The notes beneath the pieces were generated by a model that was not told the DNA's origin, searched no databases, and worked only from the letters and a program-made list of their open reading frames with translations. A program made the position numbers and the translations under genes. A stretch of 64,000 bases of DNA from Streptosporangiales bacterium (lineage in GTDB: Bacteria; Actinomycetota; Actinomycetes; Streptosporangiales; WHST01): contig WHST01000022.1 in the NCBI GenBank assembly GCA_009379955.1, forward strand, positions 1-64,000, read 5' to 3'. Each line of letters starts with the position of its first letter. Position 1 is the first letter of the stretch. Positions 2,893 to 56,143 of this stretch are shown here, piece after piece.

Positions 2893-3015
2893 ATGGCTGA
2901 TCACCCCGCGTACCCCGCCGTCCTCCGCCGCTCCGCTCCTCGCTCACCTACGCGAGTCACGTCACTCACGGTGCACATCCTCGCTGCGATGCTCGCTTTG
3001 GATGACGGCTCATGA
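2893..3015 (+). CDS. Short leader ORF of the ATGA-coupled repeat, copy 1
   Basis: This is a 40-codon reading frame with a good ribosome binding site (GGGAGAGG, 2883-2890) in front of its ATG. The TGA at 3013-3015 overlaps the ATG of the following membrane-protein gene (ATGA at 3012). The peptide contains LRRSAPRSP in the middle and LAAMLA near the end, ending in GS. Closely similar peptides occur at 41788-41901 (minus strand) and 54283-54500, each also ending in ATGA. Part of the DNA is conserved almost base for base (CGCTCCGCTCCTCGCTCA, GCTGCGATGCTC), so it may spread as a DNA repeat. Translational coupling to the downstream gene is inferred; a function of the peptide itself is unknown. Confidence 0.65.
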   Translation: MADHPAYPAVLRRSAPRSPTRVTSLTVHILAAMLALDDGS

Positions 3016-4007
3016 ACTTCGAACCTCCGCAGCGCGACCCGCTGACCGACGCTCTCGGCGGACTCGTCCGCGACGGCACGCTCTCCGACCGGCAGGCGCA
3101 GCGGGTCGACGACACGCTGCGCGCCGCCGGCGTCGGTGCCCCTGCCGGCGCGGTGCCGCGGCAGGACGAACGCTCGGAACGATCCGTCACGGCCGCCGAG
3201 GTGCTGTCGTACCTCGGCGCCGCGCTCACGATCGGCGCACTCGTCCTGATCGTCGGCCTCTCCTGGGACCAGCTGGGACGCGCGGGGAAGGTCACCATCT
3301 GCACGTCCGCCACCGTCCTGCTCATCGCGGTGGCGTTCGCGGTGGCGCGGTGGTCGTCGTCGCTGTTCCGGAGCCGCACGTACGTCGTGGCGTCGGCCCT
3401 CGGCGCTCTCGCCGCCGTCGGCGCCGCGCTCACGGCCGGCGTCGCGGTCGACATCCCCCGCGGCGACGACCTGCTGCTGCCCGGCCTCGCCCTCGTGCTC
3501 GTCGGTACGGGAGCGTACGCGGTGTGGCGCGGCGCCCCGACGATCTGCGCGGTCTTCGCCGGTGGCCTGCTCATCGTCGGCGACCTGCTCGACCGGGCTC
3601 CCGACTGGTGGGACTCGAGCCTCGGGTACGGGCTCGCGTTCTACGCCTACGCGGTGCTGACGCTCGCGCTTGGCCGGCTGCTCCCCCACCCGCACGTGAC
3701 CGGCGTCCTCGCCGGCATCGTCGCCCTCGTCGCGTCCGAGGTGGCGACGGTCGACGAGCGTCCGGTCGTGGGGCTGCTGCTCGGCATCGTCGCGGTGGCC
3801 GGGATGTTCGCGCTCTTCTGGACGGCGCGGCGCTGGTGGTACGCCGCACTCGGCGTGCTCACCGCGCTGATCGTCCCGCCGACGGCGGTCGCCCAGATCT
3901 GGGGCGACGCCTCGATCGCCGCCGTGGTGCTGCTGGCGATCGGCGTGCTCCTGGTGGCCGCCGCGCTGGTGCTGGCGAAGCGTGGCGCCTTGCGCCGTCC
4001 GACCTGA
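3012..4007 (+). CDS. DUF2157-like polytopic membrane protein
   Basis: The protein has 331 residues: a soluble N-terminal part of about 60 residues including DGTLSDRQAQRVDD, followed by about nine hydrophobic segments such as VLSYLGAALTIGALVLIVGLS and LIVGLSWDQLGRAGKVT. This N-terminal helix-rich part followed by a multi-pass membrane region fits DUF2157-type proteins of unknown function. The start overlaps the stop of the leader ORF (ATGA) and has no ribosome binding site of its own, so expression probably depends on translational coupling. It is convergent with ddl, with a 4-bp gap between the stop codons. Confidence 0.75.
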   Translation: MNFEPPQRDPLTDALGGLVRDGTLSDRQAQRVDDTLRAAGVGAPAGAVPRQDERSERSVTAAEVLSYLGAALTIGALVLIVGLSWDQLGRAGKVTICTSATVLLIAVAFAVARWSSSLFRSRTYVVASALGALAAVGAALTAGVAVDIPRGDDLLLPGLALVLVGTGAYAVWRGAPTICAVFAGGLLIVGDLLDRAPDWWDSSLGYGLAFYAYAVLTLALGRLLPHPHVTGVLAGIVALVASEVATVDERPVVGLLLGIVAVAGMFALFWTARRWWYAALGVLTALIVPPTAVAQIWGDASIAAVVLLAIGVLLVAAALVLAKRGALRRPT

Positions 4008-40885: not shown

Positions 40886-41791
40886 CTAGGGTGCGCCGCG
40901 AACCACGACGTTGGCCAGCGGCTCGCCCGCGGCGAGCCGGGCGAGCTGCTCGTTGACCAGCCGGCGGGCGCGCGGCAGGAACGCGGTGCTCGGCCCGCCG
41001 ACGTGCGGGCTGATCAGGCAGCCGGGCGCGCGCCACAGCGGATGGTGGGACGGCAACGGCTCGGGCTCCGTCACGTCGAGAGCGGCGCGGAGGCGTTCGG
41101 ACTCGAGCTCGGCGAGCAGCGCGTCGGTCTGCACGATCCTGCCGCGGGCGACGTTGACCAGGAGCGCGCCGTCCTTCATCCGGGCGAGGAACCCCGCGTC
41201 GACGAGACCGCGGGTCTCGTCGGTGAGCGGGAGCAGCACGACCACGACGTCGGCGCGCGGCAGCAGCTCGGGCAGCTCGTCCATGGTGTGCACGCCCTCG
41301 CGAGCGCGCCGCGCGACGCGGATGACGTCCGCCTCGAACCCGGCGAGCCGGGCCTCGACGGCCTTGCCGATCGACCCGTGGCCGAGGATGAGCACGGTGC
41401 GGTCGGCCAGCGCCGGCCGCGTCGTCGGCGCCCAGCGGCCGGAGTCCTGCGCCCTCGTGAACTCGGGGATACCGCGCAGCGAGGCGAGGATCAGGGTCAT
41501 CGCCAGCTCGGCGGTGCTCGTGTCGTGCACGCCGCGCGCGTTGCACAGGGTGACGCTGTCGGGCAGTCCGGACAGCACATGCTCGTACCCGGCCGTGAGG
41601 GTCTGGATCGTCCTGAGCTTCGGCATGCGCCCGGCCAGCGCGAGGTTGACCGGGTCGAAGTCGTACGGGAGCACGTAGAACTCGACGTCGTCGAGGTCGG
41701 TCGGCTCCTGGGGCGGTCCCGTGTAGTGGGCGGCCTCGACGTCGTCGGGGATCTCGAGGTCGGTGAAGGGGACGAGTACCTTTCGAGTCAT
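40886..41791 (-). CDS. D-isomer-specific 2-hydroxyacid dehydrogenase
   Basis: This 301-residue protein has the C-terminal Rossmann domain VLILGHGSIGKAVEARLAGF, LVNVARGRIVQTDAL, an RxxE-type region at ALLAELESERL, DVTEPEPLPSHHPLW and ISPHVGG with the catalytic histidine. The N-terminal part is short. It reduces a 2-oxo acid or oxidises a D-2-hydroxy acid; the substrate is not inferable. Its start overlaps the stop of the upstream leader ORF (ATGA at 41788-41791) and lacks a ribosome binding site, so translation likely depends on coupling. Confidence 0.9.
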   Translation of the reverse strand: MTRKVLVPFTDLEIPDDVEAAHYTGPPQEPTDLDDVEFYVLPYDFDPVNLALAGRMPKLRTIQTLTAGYEHVLSGLPDSVTLCNARGVHDTSTAELAMTLILASLRGIPEFTRAQDSGRWAPTTRPALADRTVLILGHGSIGKAVEARLAGFEADVIRVARRAREGVHTMDELPELLPRADVVVVLLPLTDETRGLVDAGFLARMKDGALLVNVARGRIVQTDALLAELESERLRAALDVTEPEPLPSHHPLWRAPGCLISPHVGGPSTAFLPRARRLVNEQLARLAAGEPLANVVVRGAP

Positions 41792-41901
41792 GAGCCGACC
41801 ACCGAAGTGAGCATCGCAGCGAGGACGTGAGCCGCGACAATCCCGCCACGCGCAGGTGAGCGAGGAGCGGAGCGGAGGAGGTCGGCGGGAGACACAGTCA
41901 T
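41788..41901 (-). CDS. Short leader ORF of the ATGA-coupled repeat, copy 2
   Basis: This is a 37-codon frame on the minus strand. The peptide starts MTVSPADLLRSAPRSP, has a Gly/Ala-rich middle, and ends AAMLTSVVGS. The TGA (41788-41790) overlaps the ATG of the hydroxyacid dehydrogenase gene. A TAGGGT box ends 7 nt before its ATG (41909-41914), so it would be the first frame of a leaderless transcript. It is homologous to the ORFs at 2893-3015 and 54283-54500. Confidence 0.65.
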   Translation of the reverse strand: MTVSPADLLRSAPRSPARGGIVAAHVLAAMLTSVVGS

Positions 41902-54239: not shown

Positions 54240-54286
54240 GGGTGCGAGCGTACGCCGGGCATCTCGTCGTACGCTCGCACCCGTGA
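54236..54286. promoter_or_regulatory. 19-bp palindrome holding two mirrored leaderless promoters
   Basis: TCACGGGTGCGAGCGTACG (54236-54254) and its exact complement (54268-54286) flank a 13-nt loop. Each arm contains the -10 box TACGCT (54270-54275 plus; 54247-54252 minus) followed by 7 nt and a GTG: 54283 for the leader ORF and 54239 for the MetE-like gene. Both start codons and both -10 boxes are inside the symmetric arms. Confidence 0.7.
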
Positions 54287-54393
54287 CTGTGCCTCCCGCC
54301 ACCCTCCTCCGCTCCGCTCCTCGCTCGGCGGACACACGGACACCGCGGGCACTCCGAACCGCTGCGATGCTCACTTCGGACGGCAGCTCATGA
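54283..54393 (+). CDS. Short leader ORF of the ATGA-coupled repeat, copy 3a
   Basis: A 36-codon frame starts at GTG 54283, preceded by TACGCT and 7 nt. The peptide starts VTVPPATLLRSAPRSA and ends TAAMLTSDGSS. The TGA (54391-54393) overlaps the ATG of copy 3b at 54390. It is the first half of a perfect 107-bp tandem duplication. Confidence 0.6.
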   Translation: MTVPPATLLRSAPRSADTRTPRALRTAAMLTSDGSS

Positions 54394-54504
54394 CCGAGCC
54401 TCCCGCCACCCTCCTCCGCTCCGCTCCTCGCTCGGCGGACACACGGACACCGCGGGCACTCCGAACCGCTGCGATGCTCACTTCGGACGGCAGCTCATGA
54501 CCGA
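54291..54504. repeat. Perfect 107-bp tandem duplication
   Basis: The unit 54291-54397 is repeated without change at 54398-54504. Because 107 is not a multiple of three, each unit reads in a new frame, and each ends by overlapping the following start codon as ATGA. The repeat spans most of leader ORFs 3a and 3b and the first codons of the glucosidase gene. Confidence 0.95.
54390..54500 (+). CDS. Short leader ORF of the ATGA-coupled repeat, copy 3b
   Basis: A 36-codon frame from ATG 54390 reads MTEPPATLLRSAPRS and ends TAAMLTSDGSS. Its TGA (54498-54500) overlaps the ATG of the GH13 gene (54497). The peptide differs from copy 3a only at its first codons. A chain of two re-initiations would be needed to reach the glucosidase start from the promoter at 54270. 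Confidence 0.6.
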   Translation: MTEPPATLLRSAPRSADTRTPRALRTAAMLTSDGSS

Positions 54505-56143
54505 GCCTGCAGCGACCGAACTCCCCTGGTGGCACGGGACGACGATCTACCACGTCTACCCGCGCTCCTTCGCCGACGGGAACGGCGACGGCATCGGCGA
54601 CCTCAGGGGACTCATCGACCGGCTCGACCACGTCACCGACCTCGGCTTCGACACGCTCTGGCTGTCACCGTTCTTCACCAGCCCGCAGCACGACTTCGGC
54701 TACGACGTCAGCGACTACCGTGCCGTGGCGCCCGAGTACGGCACCCTCGACGACGCCGACGAGCTCATCGCCGCGTGCCACGAGCGCGGGCTGCGCATCG
54801 TGTTCGACCTCGTGCTCAACCACACCTCCGAGCAGCATCCGTGGTTCCGCGAGTCGCGACGGTCCCGCACCAACGACAAGGCCGACTGGTACGTCTGGCG
54901 CGACGGCAAGGGGCGGTACGGTCGCCGGCCGCCGAACAACTGGCGCTCCAGCCTCGAGGTGCGGTCCGCGTGGCAGTGGAGCCCCGAGCGCCGGCAGTGG
55001 TACCTCGCCTCGTTCCTGCCGTGGCAGCCCGACCTGAACTGGCGCAGCCCCGACGTGCGCCGCGCGATGTTCGACATGGCGCGGTTCTGGCTCGACCGCG
55101 GGGTCGACGGCTTCCGGCTCGACCTGTTCGGCACGGTCATGAAGGACGCCGAGTTCAGGAACAATCCCCTGCACCTCGTGACCGGCGGTGGCGACATCCC
55201 CCACCTGTGGCGTCGCGTGCACAACGAGAACACCGACGACAACTTCGCGCTCGCACGCGAGCTGCGCAGCGTGACCGACGACGTCGCACCGCCCGATCGC
55301 GTCCTGCTCGGCGAGGTGTTCGGGTCGTCGGCCACCGTCCGCCGCTATCTCGGCGACCACGACGGCCTGCATCTCGTCTTCCTGTTCGAGTTCCTCGCGT
55401 TCCGCTACGACGCGCGCTTCGTCCGCGACCGCATCAGCGCGTACGAGTCCGCGTTCCCCGCGCCGACGCAGCCGACGTACGTGGTCGAGAACCACGACCA
55501 GACGCGCAGCATCGACCGGCTCGGCGGCGACCTGCGCAAGGCAAGGGTCCTCGCGGTGCTGCTGCTCACGCTGCGCGGCGTCGCCTGCGTCTACCAGGGC
55601 CAGGAGCTCGGTCAGCCGAACACCTACATCCCGCTGCGGGACGCCCAGGACCCCATCGTCCGCGAGTTCTTCTCCTGGGTGCCCGAGGTGATCGCGCGTC
55701 GCCTGCGCCGCCGGATCAACCGCGACGAGATGCGCACCCCGATGCCCTGGGACGCCTCACCCGGTCACGGCTTCTGCCCGCCGGAGACCGTTCCCTGGCT
55801 GCCGATAAGCGCCGTGCCCGGCCGTGACGTGGCGAGCCAGCGCGCGGTGCCCGGCTCGCTGCTCAACCTGTACCGCCGCCTGCTCCGCCTGCGCGGAGAG
55901 GTCCGCGCGCTCCGCCACGGCGAGCTGCGCCTCGTACCCGACATGCCGGCCGACGTGCTGGCGTACGAGAGGTCCGCGCCGACCGAGCGATACGCCGTCT
56001 ACGCCAACTTCGGCGACCGGGTCGCGCGCGTCCAGCTCACCTCTGCGGGCGACTCCGTGCTCGGCACCGACGAGGCGATCAGCCTCACCGGGCGTGACCT
56101 ACGGTTGCCGCAGCACTCGGCCACCGTGGTGCGCCTGCGCTGA
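54497..56143 (+). CDS. GH13 alpha-glucosidase (oligo-1,6-glucosidase type)
   Basis: This 548-residue enzyme has the usual (beta/alpha)8 barrel. TIYHVYPRSFADGNGDGIGDL opens it; DLVLNHTS, the nucleophile Asp209 in DGFRLDLFG, the acid/base Glu273 in LLGEVFG, and Asp334 in VENHDQTRS are all present, with a short C-terminal beta domain. There is no signal peptide, so it acts on sugars such as maltose, isomaltose or trehalose-type disaccharides in the cytoplasm. The ATG at 54497 overlaps leader ORF 3b and has no ribosome binding site of its own. Confidence 0.93.
   Translation: MTEPAATELPWWHGTTIYHVYPRSFADGNGDGIGDLRGLIDRLDHVTDLGFDTLWLSPFFTSPQHDFGYDVSDYRAVAPEYGTLDDADELIAACHERGLRIVFDLVLNHTSEQHPWFRESRRSRTNDKADWYVWRDGKGRYGRRPPNNWRSSLEVRSAWQWSPERRQWYLASFLPWQPDLNWRSPDVRRAMFDMARFWLDRGVDGFRLDLFGTVMKDAEFRNNPLHLVTGGGDIPHLWRRVHNENTDDNFALARELRSVTDDVAPPDRVLLGEVFGSSATVRRYLGDHDGLHLVFLFEFLAFRYDARFVRDRISAYESAFPAPTQPTYVVENHDQTRSIDRLGGDLRKARVLAVLLLTLRGVACVYQGQELGQPNTYIPLRDAQDPIVREFFSWVPEVIARRLRRRINRDEMRTPMPWDASPGHGFCPPETVPWLPISAVPGRDVASQRAVPGSLLNLYRRLLRLRGEVRALRHGELRLVPDMPADVLAYERSAPTERYAVYANFGDRVARVQLTSAGDSVLGTDEAISLTGRDLRLPQHSATVVRLR

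Follow-up and report, generated by a model that had tools for sequence, protein, structure and literature searches.

A start-codon repeat resembling mycobacterial MIRUs in a Streptosporangiales genome

In 1997, Supply et al. reportedly found the target of mycobacterial interspersed repetitive units (MIRUs) to be the RTGA stop/start overlap of an operon. To our knowledge, neither the way in which MIRUs spread nor the reason for their position at start codons has been settled. Unit sizes of 40-100 bp are given in the literature. The family is described here through two articles (PMC12548453, PMC2734929), the first of them a 2025 review in which MIRUs are presented as apparently mobile units that insert at start codons, with an internal ORF coupled at -4 spacing to the gene that follows; in a third article (PMC4128351), an M. 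bovis gene has a 5' UTR that is wholly a MIRU, and the M. marinum orthologue is leaderless. The palindromic repeats of the REP/RAYT systems (PMC3733652) share with the cassette described below a small size, high copy number, hairpin formation and lack of autonomy.

Here we consider a repeated leader-ORF cassette in positions 1 to 64,000 of contig WHST01000022.1 (the window; contig C22 of genome G000, which comprises 6.6 Mb in 225 contigs). It is very probably a mobile repeat, small and non-autonomous, with the mode of action of the mycobacterial MIRUs. The preliminary description of the window knew of no described family like this one; this claim has to be given up, given that MIRUs do the same thing (PMC12548453).

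Copies and anatomy of the cassette

The four leader ORFs that had been picked out in the window, of 36-40 aa with RSAPRS and AAML motifs and an ATGA overlap between the stop and the next start, are all present as described. In copy 1, on the plus strand, the 40-aa leader ORF (2893-3015) ends with a TGA that overlaps the ATG (3012) of the gene at 3012-4007, the product of which is a DUF2157-like membrane protein (30.7 bits, just below the Pfam cut-off of 32.4); within it lie the 5' arm GCCGTCCTCC (2917-2926), the conserved core CTCCTCGCTC ... CGCTGCGATGCTC with its variable middle, of the 59-nt class (2936-2994), and the 3' arm GGATGACGGC, a degenerate Shine-Dalgarno arm (3000-3009). Copy 2, on the minus strand, has a 37-aa leader ORF (41788-41901) with a stop that overlaps the start (41791) of a 2-hydroxyacid dehydrogenase gene (40886-41791); its 5' arm GCCGACCTCC (41877-41886), core of the 59-nt class (41809-41867) and 3' arm GGTGGTCGGC (41794-41803) follow the same order, and the leader ATG is preceded by a TAGGGT -10-like box 7 nt upstream. 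Copies 3 and 4 form a plus-strand tandem with a period of 107 nt. The 36-aa leader ORF of copy 3 (54283-54393) starts with GTG, 7 nt downstream of a TACGCT -10-like box, contains a core of the 56-nt class (54317-54372), and ends on the start of copy 4, itself a leader ORF of 36 aa (54390-54500), with a 56-nt-class core (54424-54479) and the degenerate 3' arm GGACGGCAGC (54485-54494), the stop of which overlaps the start (54497) of a gene for a GH13 alpha-amylase domain protein (54497-56143). Both the leader of copy 4 and its GH13 gene carry ATGACCGAGCCT.

The search for further copies that the preliminary description had called for gave 76 unique copies in the genome, with a covariance model built from 53 of them. 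The unit, measured from one RTGA to the next, is 107 or 110 nt long and comprises, in this order, RTGAC..., a short variable stretch, the 5' arm (consensus GCCGNCCTCC), the invariant block CCGCTCCTCGCTC, a variable middle in two length classes, the invariant block CGCTGCGATGCTC, the 3' arm (consensus GGAGGNCGGC), and CTC-RTGA. The Shine-Dalgarno sequence of the gene that follows lies in the 3' arm. Of the 67 coupled copies, 58 carry such a Shine-Dalgarno-like stretch within the element, immediately ahead of the start of the downstream ORF (consensus ..CACTTTGGAGGACGGCTC-ATGA). The earlier statement that the downstream genes lack a ribosome binding site thus applies to the degenerate window copies (GGATGACGG, GGTGGTCGG, GGACGGCAG) but not to the family; it is explained by the degenerate state of the 3' arm, which the window copies share with some others. 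Besides the pair at 54283/54390, tandem pairs occur on contigs C45 and C13. One locus on the minus strand (L331, G000:C74:28861-28920) is a deletion derivative of about 50 nt, in which a leader that is still coupled can be read.

Could the resemblance among the copies reflect chance or the ordinary composition of a GC-rich genome? Within the window, individual 13-mers with two mismatches do come near the chance level, and CTCCGCTCCTCGCTC, at up to two mismatches, occurs 4 times against 1.2 expected. However, the two-block pattern has 58 exact matches genome-wide and none in the reversed control, and the 347 genomes of the order yielded no control hits, so that this explanation, to which we attach practically no credence, is already refuted.

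Junctions with host genes and lineage-specific sites

In 65 of the 76 copies, a leader ORF of about 36-40 codons points the same way as a gene of at least 60 codons, and its stop overlaps the start of that gene by 4 nt, mostly as ATGA or GTGA; 3 further copies end on the leader start of a tandem copy. Copies thus end on a start codon almost always, though not invariably; the remaining 8, under the strict criterion, are decayed or lack coupling to a gene or a tandem leader. Among the exceptions, L048, L053 and L328 no longer abut a start codon, L044 is followed by a gene starting with ATGTCC, and L331 is the deletion derivative mentioned above.

On the 5' side, an overlapping stop is present at 58 of 64 leader starts, and at 33 of the 64 the stop within the leader RTGA terminates a co-directional ORF upstream that has the GC3 signature of coding sequence. 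A TANNNT box of the leaderless type lies 4-9 nt before 10 of 67 leader starts (0.6 expected from shifts), and a Shine-Dalgarno sequence precedes 20 of 67 (2.4 expected). These upstream overlaps, boxes and Shine-Dalgarno sequences imply that the leader took over the start of the native gene. Moreover, codon 2 is identical in the leader and the gene in 21 of 51 cases, compared with 9.8 +- 2.6 after permutation (p = 0.0001), and the first bases of a leader resemble those of its own gene more closely than those of genes at other loci. Because of the stop/start overlaps on both sides and the shared codon 2, we place the cassette inside native stop/start junctions, with the start codon duplicated. 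At L055 (G000:C150), the leader and the gene after the element have their first 17 bases in common (ATGACAGTGTTGCCCGC), which may reflect a target duplication of greater length or a tandem that has collapsed.

We infer the transposition itself, the translation of the leader and re-initiation along the following lines. The element would insert at native RTGA(C) start codons, often at an ATGA where the stop of one gene overlaps the start of the next, and would duplicate the start codon together with a few following bases. The old start, with its native ribosome-binding site, leaderless promoter or upstream overlap, would then begin the leader ORF of about 36-40 codons, and the duplicated start would be preceded directly by a Shine-Dalgarno sequence that the 3' end of the element supplies. 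Ribosomes that finish the leader could therefore restart on the host gene, and insertion would be tolerated. The conserved core and the complementary arms would be, most likely, what the mobility machinery recognises.

The comparison with the sister species G001, of which a part of the genome, about 1.2 Mb, was used, bears on mobility. Upstream of about six orthologous genes in this species, the element was not detected; the clearest orthologues, with 77-87% protein identity, are those of L052, L318, L006, L030 and L320, along with a short match for L035. The presence of the element at these sites is lineage-specific, with insertion rather than loss as the simpler reading. Copies can also be inherited stably and kept for long, as indicated by four genomes of another genus (g8), in each of which one copy stands before the same 190-aa gene (L333, L336, L337, L338), which putatively encodes a CDP-alcohol phosphatidyltransferase. 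The proposal that a DNA element is spreading and provides translational coupling is, accordingly, well supported by the 76 copies, their almost invariable endings at start codons, the lineage-specific sites, the start duplication, and the tandem arrays.

As for the enzyme involved, a search for the Y1 transposase (PF01797) in the carriers G000-G003 found none, with control genomes positive, and no mobility enzyme was identified for the cassette. Mobilisation of the IS200/RAYT type was rejected on the absence of this transposase from these carriers. REPs also differ from the cassette in being extragenic and devoid of a coupled ORF.

Complementary arms

What is new in the cassette is the pair of covarying complementary arms of about 10 nt. 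Across the copies, 501 of 560 arm positions form Watson-Crick pairs, compared with 463 +- 4 after permutation; changes on both sides are seen at 6 of the 10 arm pairs, and the signal collapses in slid registers, a control that retains the kinship among copies, which the permutation ignores. G-U pairs are rarer than in the permuted set (4 vs 14.9 +- 2.0), and because of this depletion we prefer pairing at the level of DNA over selection on the mRNA. This pattern suggests that the arms pair as DNA, through recognition of a hairpin or through templated correction between the arms.

The location of the Shine-Dalgarno sequence in the 3' arm brings up a different scenario, in which the cassette is a dispersed cis-regulatory RNA: the CCUCC arm of the leader would sequester the Shine-Dalgarno arm, and a regulon of about 70 genes would be switched when ribosomes translate the leader or stall on it. 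The covarying 10-bp stem does include the Shine-Dalgarno sequence, it appears in the predicted folds of the copies L029, L041 and 41780, and, in other genomes, the pairing partner changes along with the Shine-Dalgarno arm. Yet, G-U pairs are depleted below the permuted level, which is unexpected for selection on RNA; the middle is fully variable; the three target genes in the window are unrelated; the orthologous genes of the sister species lack the element; and Rfam gave no match to the cassette, only two tRNAs being matched in the window. Furthermore, the folds of single RNA copies are no more stable than those of shuffled sequences, with the partial exception of copy 2 and L029. An RNA stem that hides the Shine-Dalgarno sequence and is opened by translation of the leader may still form, but sequestration as the main selected function is weakened by the G-U depletion and the weak folding of single sequences, and we regard a regulon of this kind as unlikely.

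Relatives of the cassette and comparison with MIRUs

The coupled 3' end, at no more than one mismatch, was detected in 11 of the 347 genomes of the order. It is found in 70, 18 and 2 copies in genomes of the genus to which the window belongs, in 5 copies in G003, in G723 as well, and in one copy each in six genomes of a single genus of another family. Besides the genus of the window, the coupled form is thus represented in a second family and in several genomes at most of a third, all of the same order; in the other genera, the architecture and the pairing are kept, and the sequence and the length of the middle are changed. A phylum-wide search with the model scored only nine candidates per genome, so that its negatives are uninformative.

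A related core repeat, CTCCGCTCCTCGCTCG-TTCC-TCGCTGCGATGCTCAC (L109-L188, e.g. L180:3127-3412), is widespread in Blastococcus, Geodermatophilus, Modestobacter and some other actinobacteria, and a tandem array of four copies with an 83-nt period is present in Blastococcus mobilis. These Geodermatophilaceae-type repeats, of which we found no description in the literature searched, share with the cassette the core CTCCGCTCCTCGCTC...TCGCTGCGATGCTCAC and complementary flanking arms (flank complementarity z = 8.2) but have neither a leader ORF nor a junction with a start codon, the sole match with one, out of 88, being that in G003.

The related repeats bear on the status of the leader peptide. A functional family of small proteins carrying RSAPRS...AAML, for instance an arrest peptide, might have been copied before many genes, given that nearly all copies retain an open, in-frame ORF and that the middle contains no in-frame stop in 56 copies. 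Nevertheless, the blocks are invariant at wobble positions whereas the variable sites alter amino acids, the middle does not show the high GC3 that usually marks coding sequence, the Geodermatophilaceae repeats have the same DNA core without such an ORF, and one G003 copy (L105) has no RSAPRS at all. We therefore reject a selected leader peptide, a highly improbable account in view of the wobble invariance, the missing GC3 signature and the ORF-less relatives. The peptide motifs are, judging from the sequences, probably by-products of the DNA element, because the core is conserved also in the repeats without a coupled ORF.

Turning to MIRUs, a query with a MIRU core matched 104 of the 248 genomes of one genus, presumably Mycobacterium. 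The units, of about 53 nt, are arranged in tandem and have an RTGA...RTGA layout like that of the cassette; one example lies between sensor-kinase and response-regulator genes. In the MIRU-type units examined (L225-L254), the complementarity of the arms exceeds the permuted level (p = 0.002), and duplication of the start codon is apparent by eye. Like MIRUs, the cassette is a short interspersed repeat with many copies, some in tandem arrays, which lies at RTGA starts or stop/start overlaps in the direction of the gene and has an internal Shine-Dalgarno sequence and an internal ORF; the 4-nt overlap in 65 copies corresponds to the -4 spacing, with the coupling itself presumed. Unlike MIRUs, the cassette is 107-110 nt long as opposed to the units of about 53 nt, has a different core, and is found in a non-mycobacterial order; its covarying arms are longer, and the Shine-Dalgarno sequence is part of the 3' arm. 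The best local score between the cassette and MIRU units gives p = 0.002 on the same strand and 0.016 in reverse, figures that include the shared RTGAC and Shine-Dalgarno motifs. Because this similarity is marginal, the cassette is classed as MIRU-like rather than as a proven homologue; because the coupled form occurs outside Mycobacterium, it is not called a MIRU.

A more far-reaching and rather doubtful conjecture is that the MIRU-like elements, the Geodermatophilaceae intergenic repeats and, possibly, MIRUs make up one actinobacterial superfamily of hairpin elements, in which a conserved core lies between arms that vary but keep strict Watson-Crick complementarity, and which some enzyme would move in the form of folded DNA. 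If so, coupling through the leader ORF would have arisen as an adaptation by which such DNA can land harmlessly on start codons. With 76 copies, empty orthologous sites, start duplications and covarying arms at hand, insertion and coupling become testable in harmless organisms. The cassette also carries a warning: conserved short peptides encoded before genes can be by-products of a DNA element.
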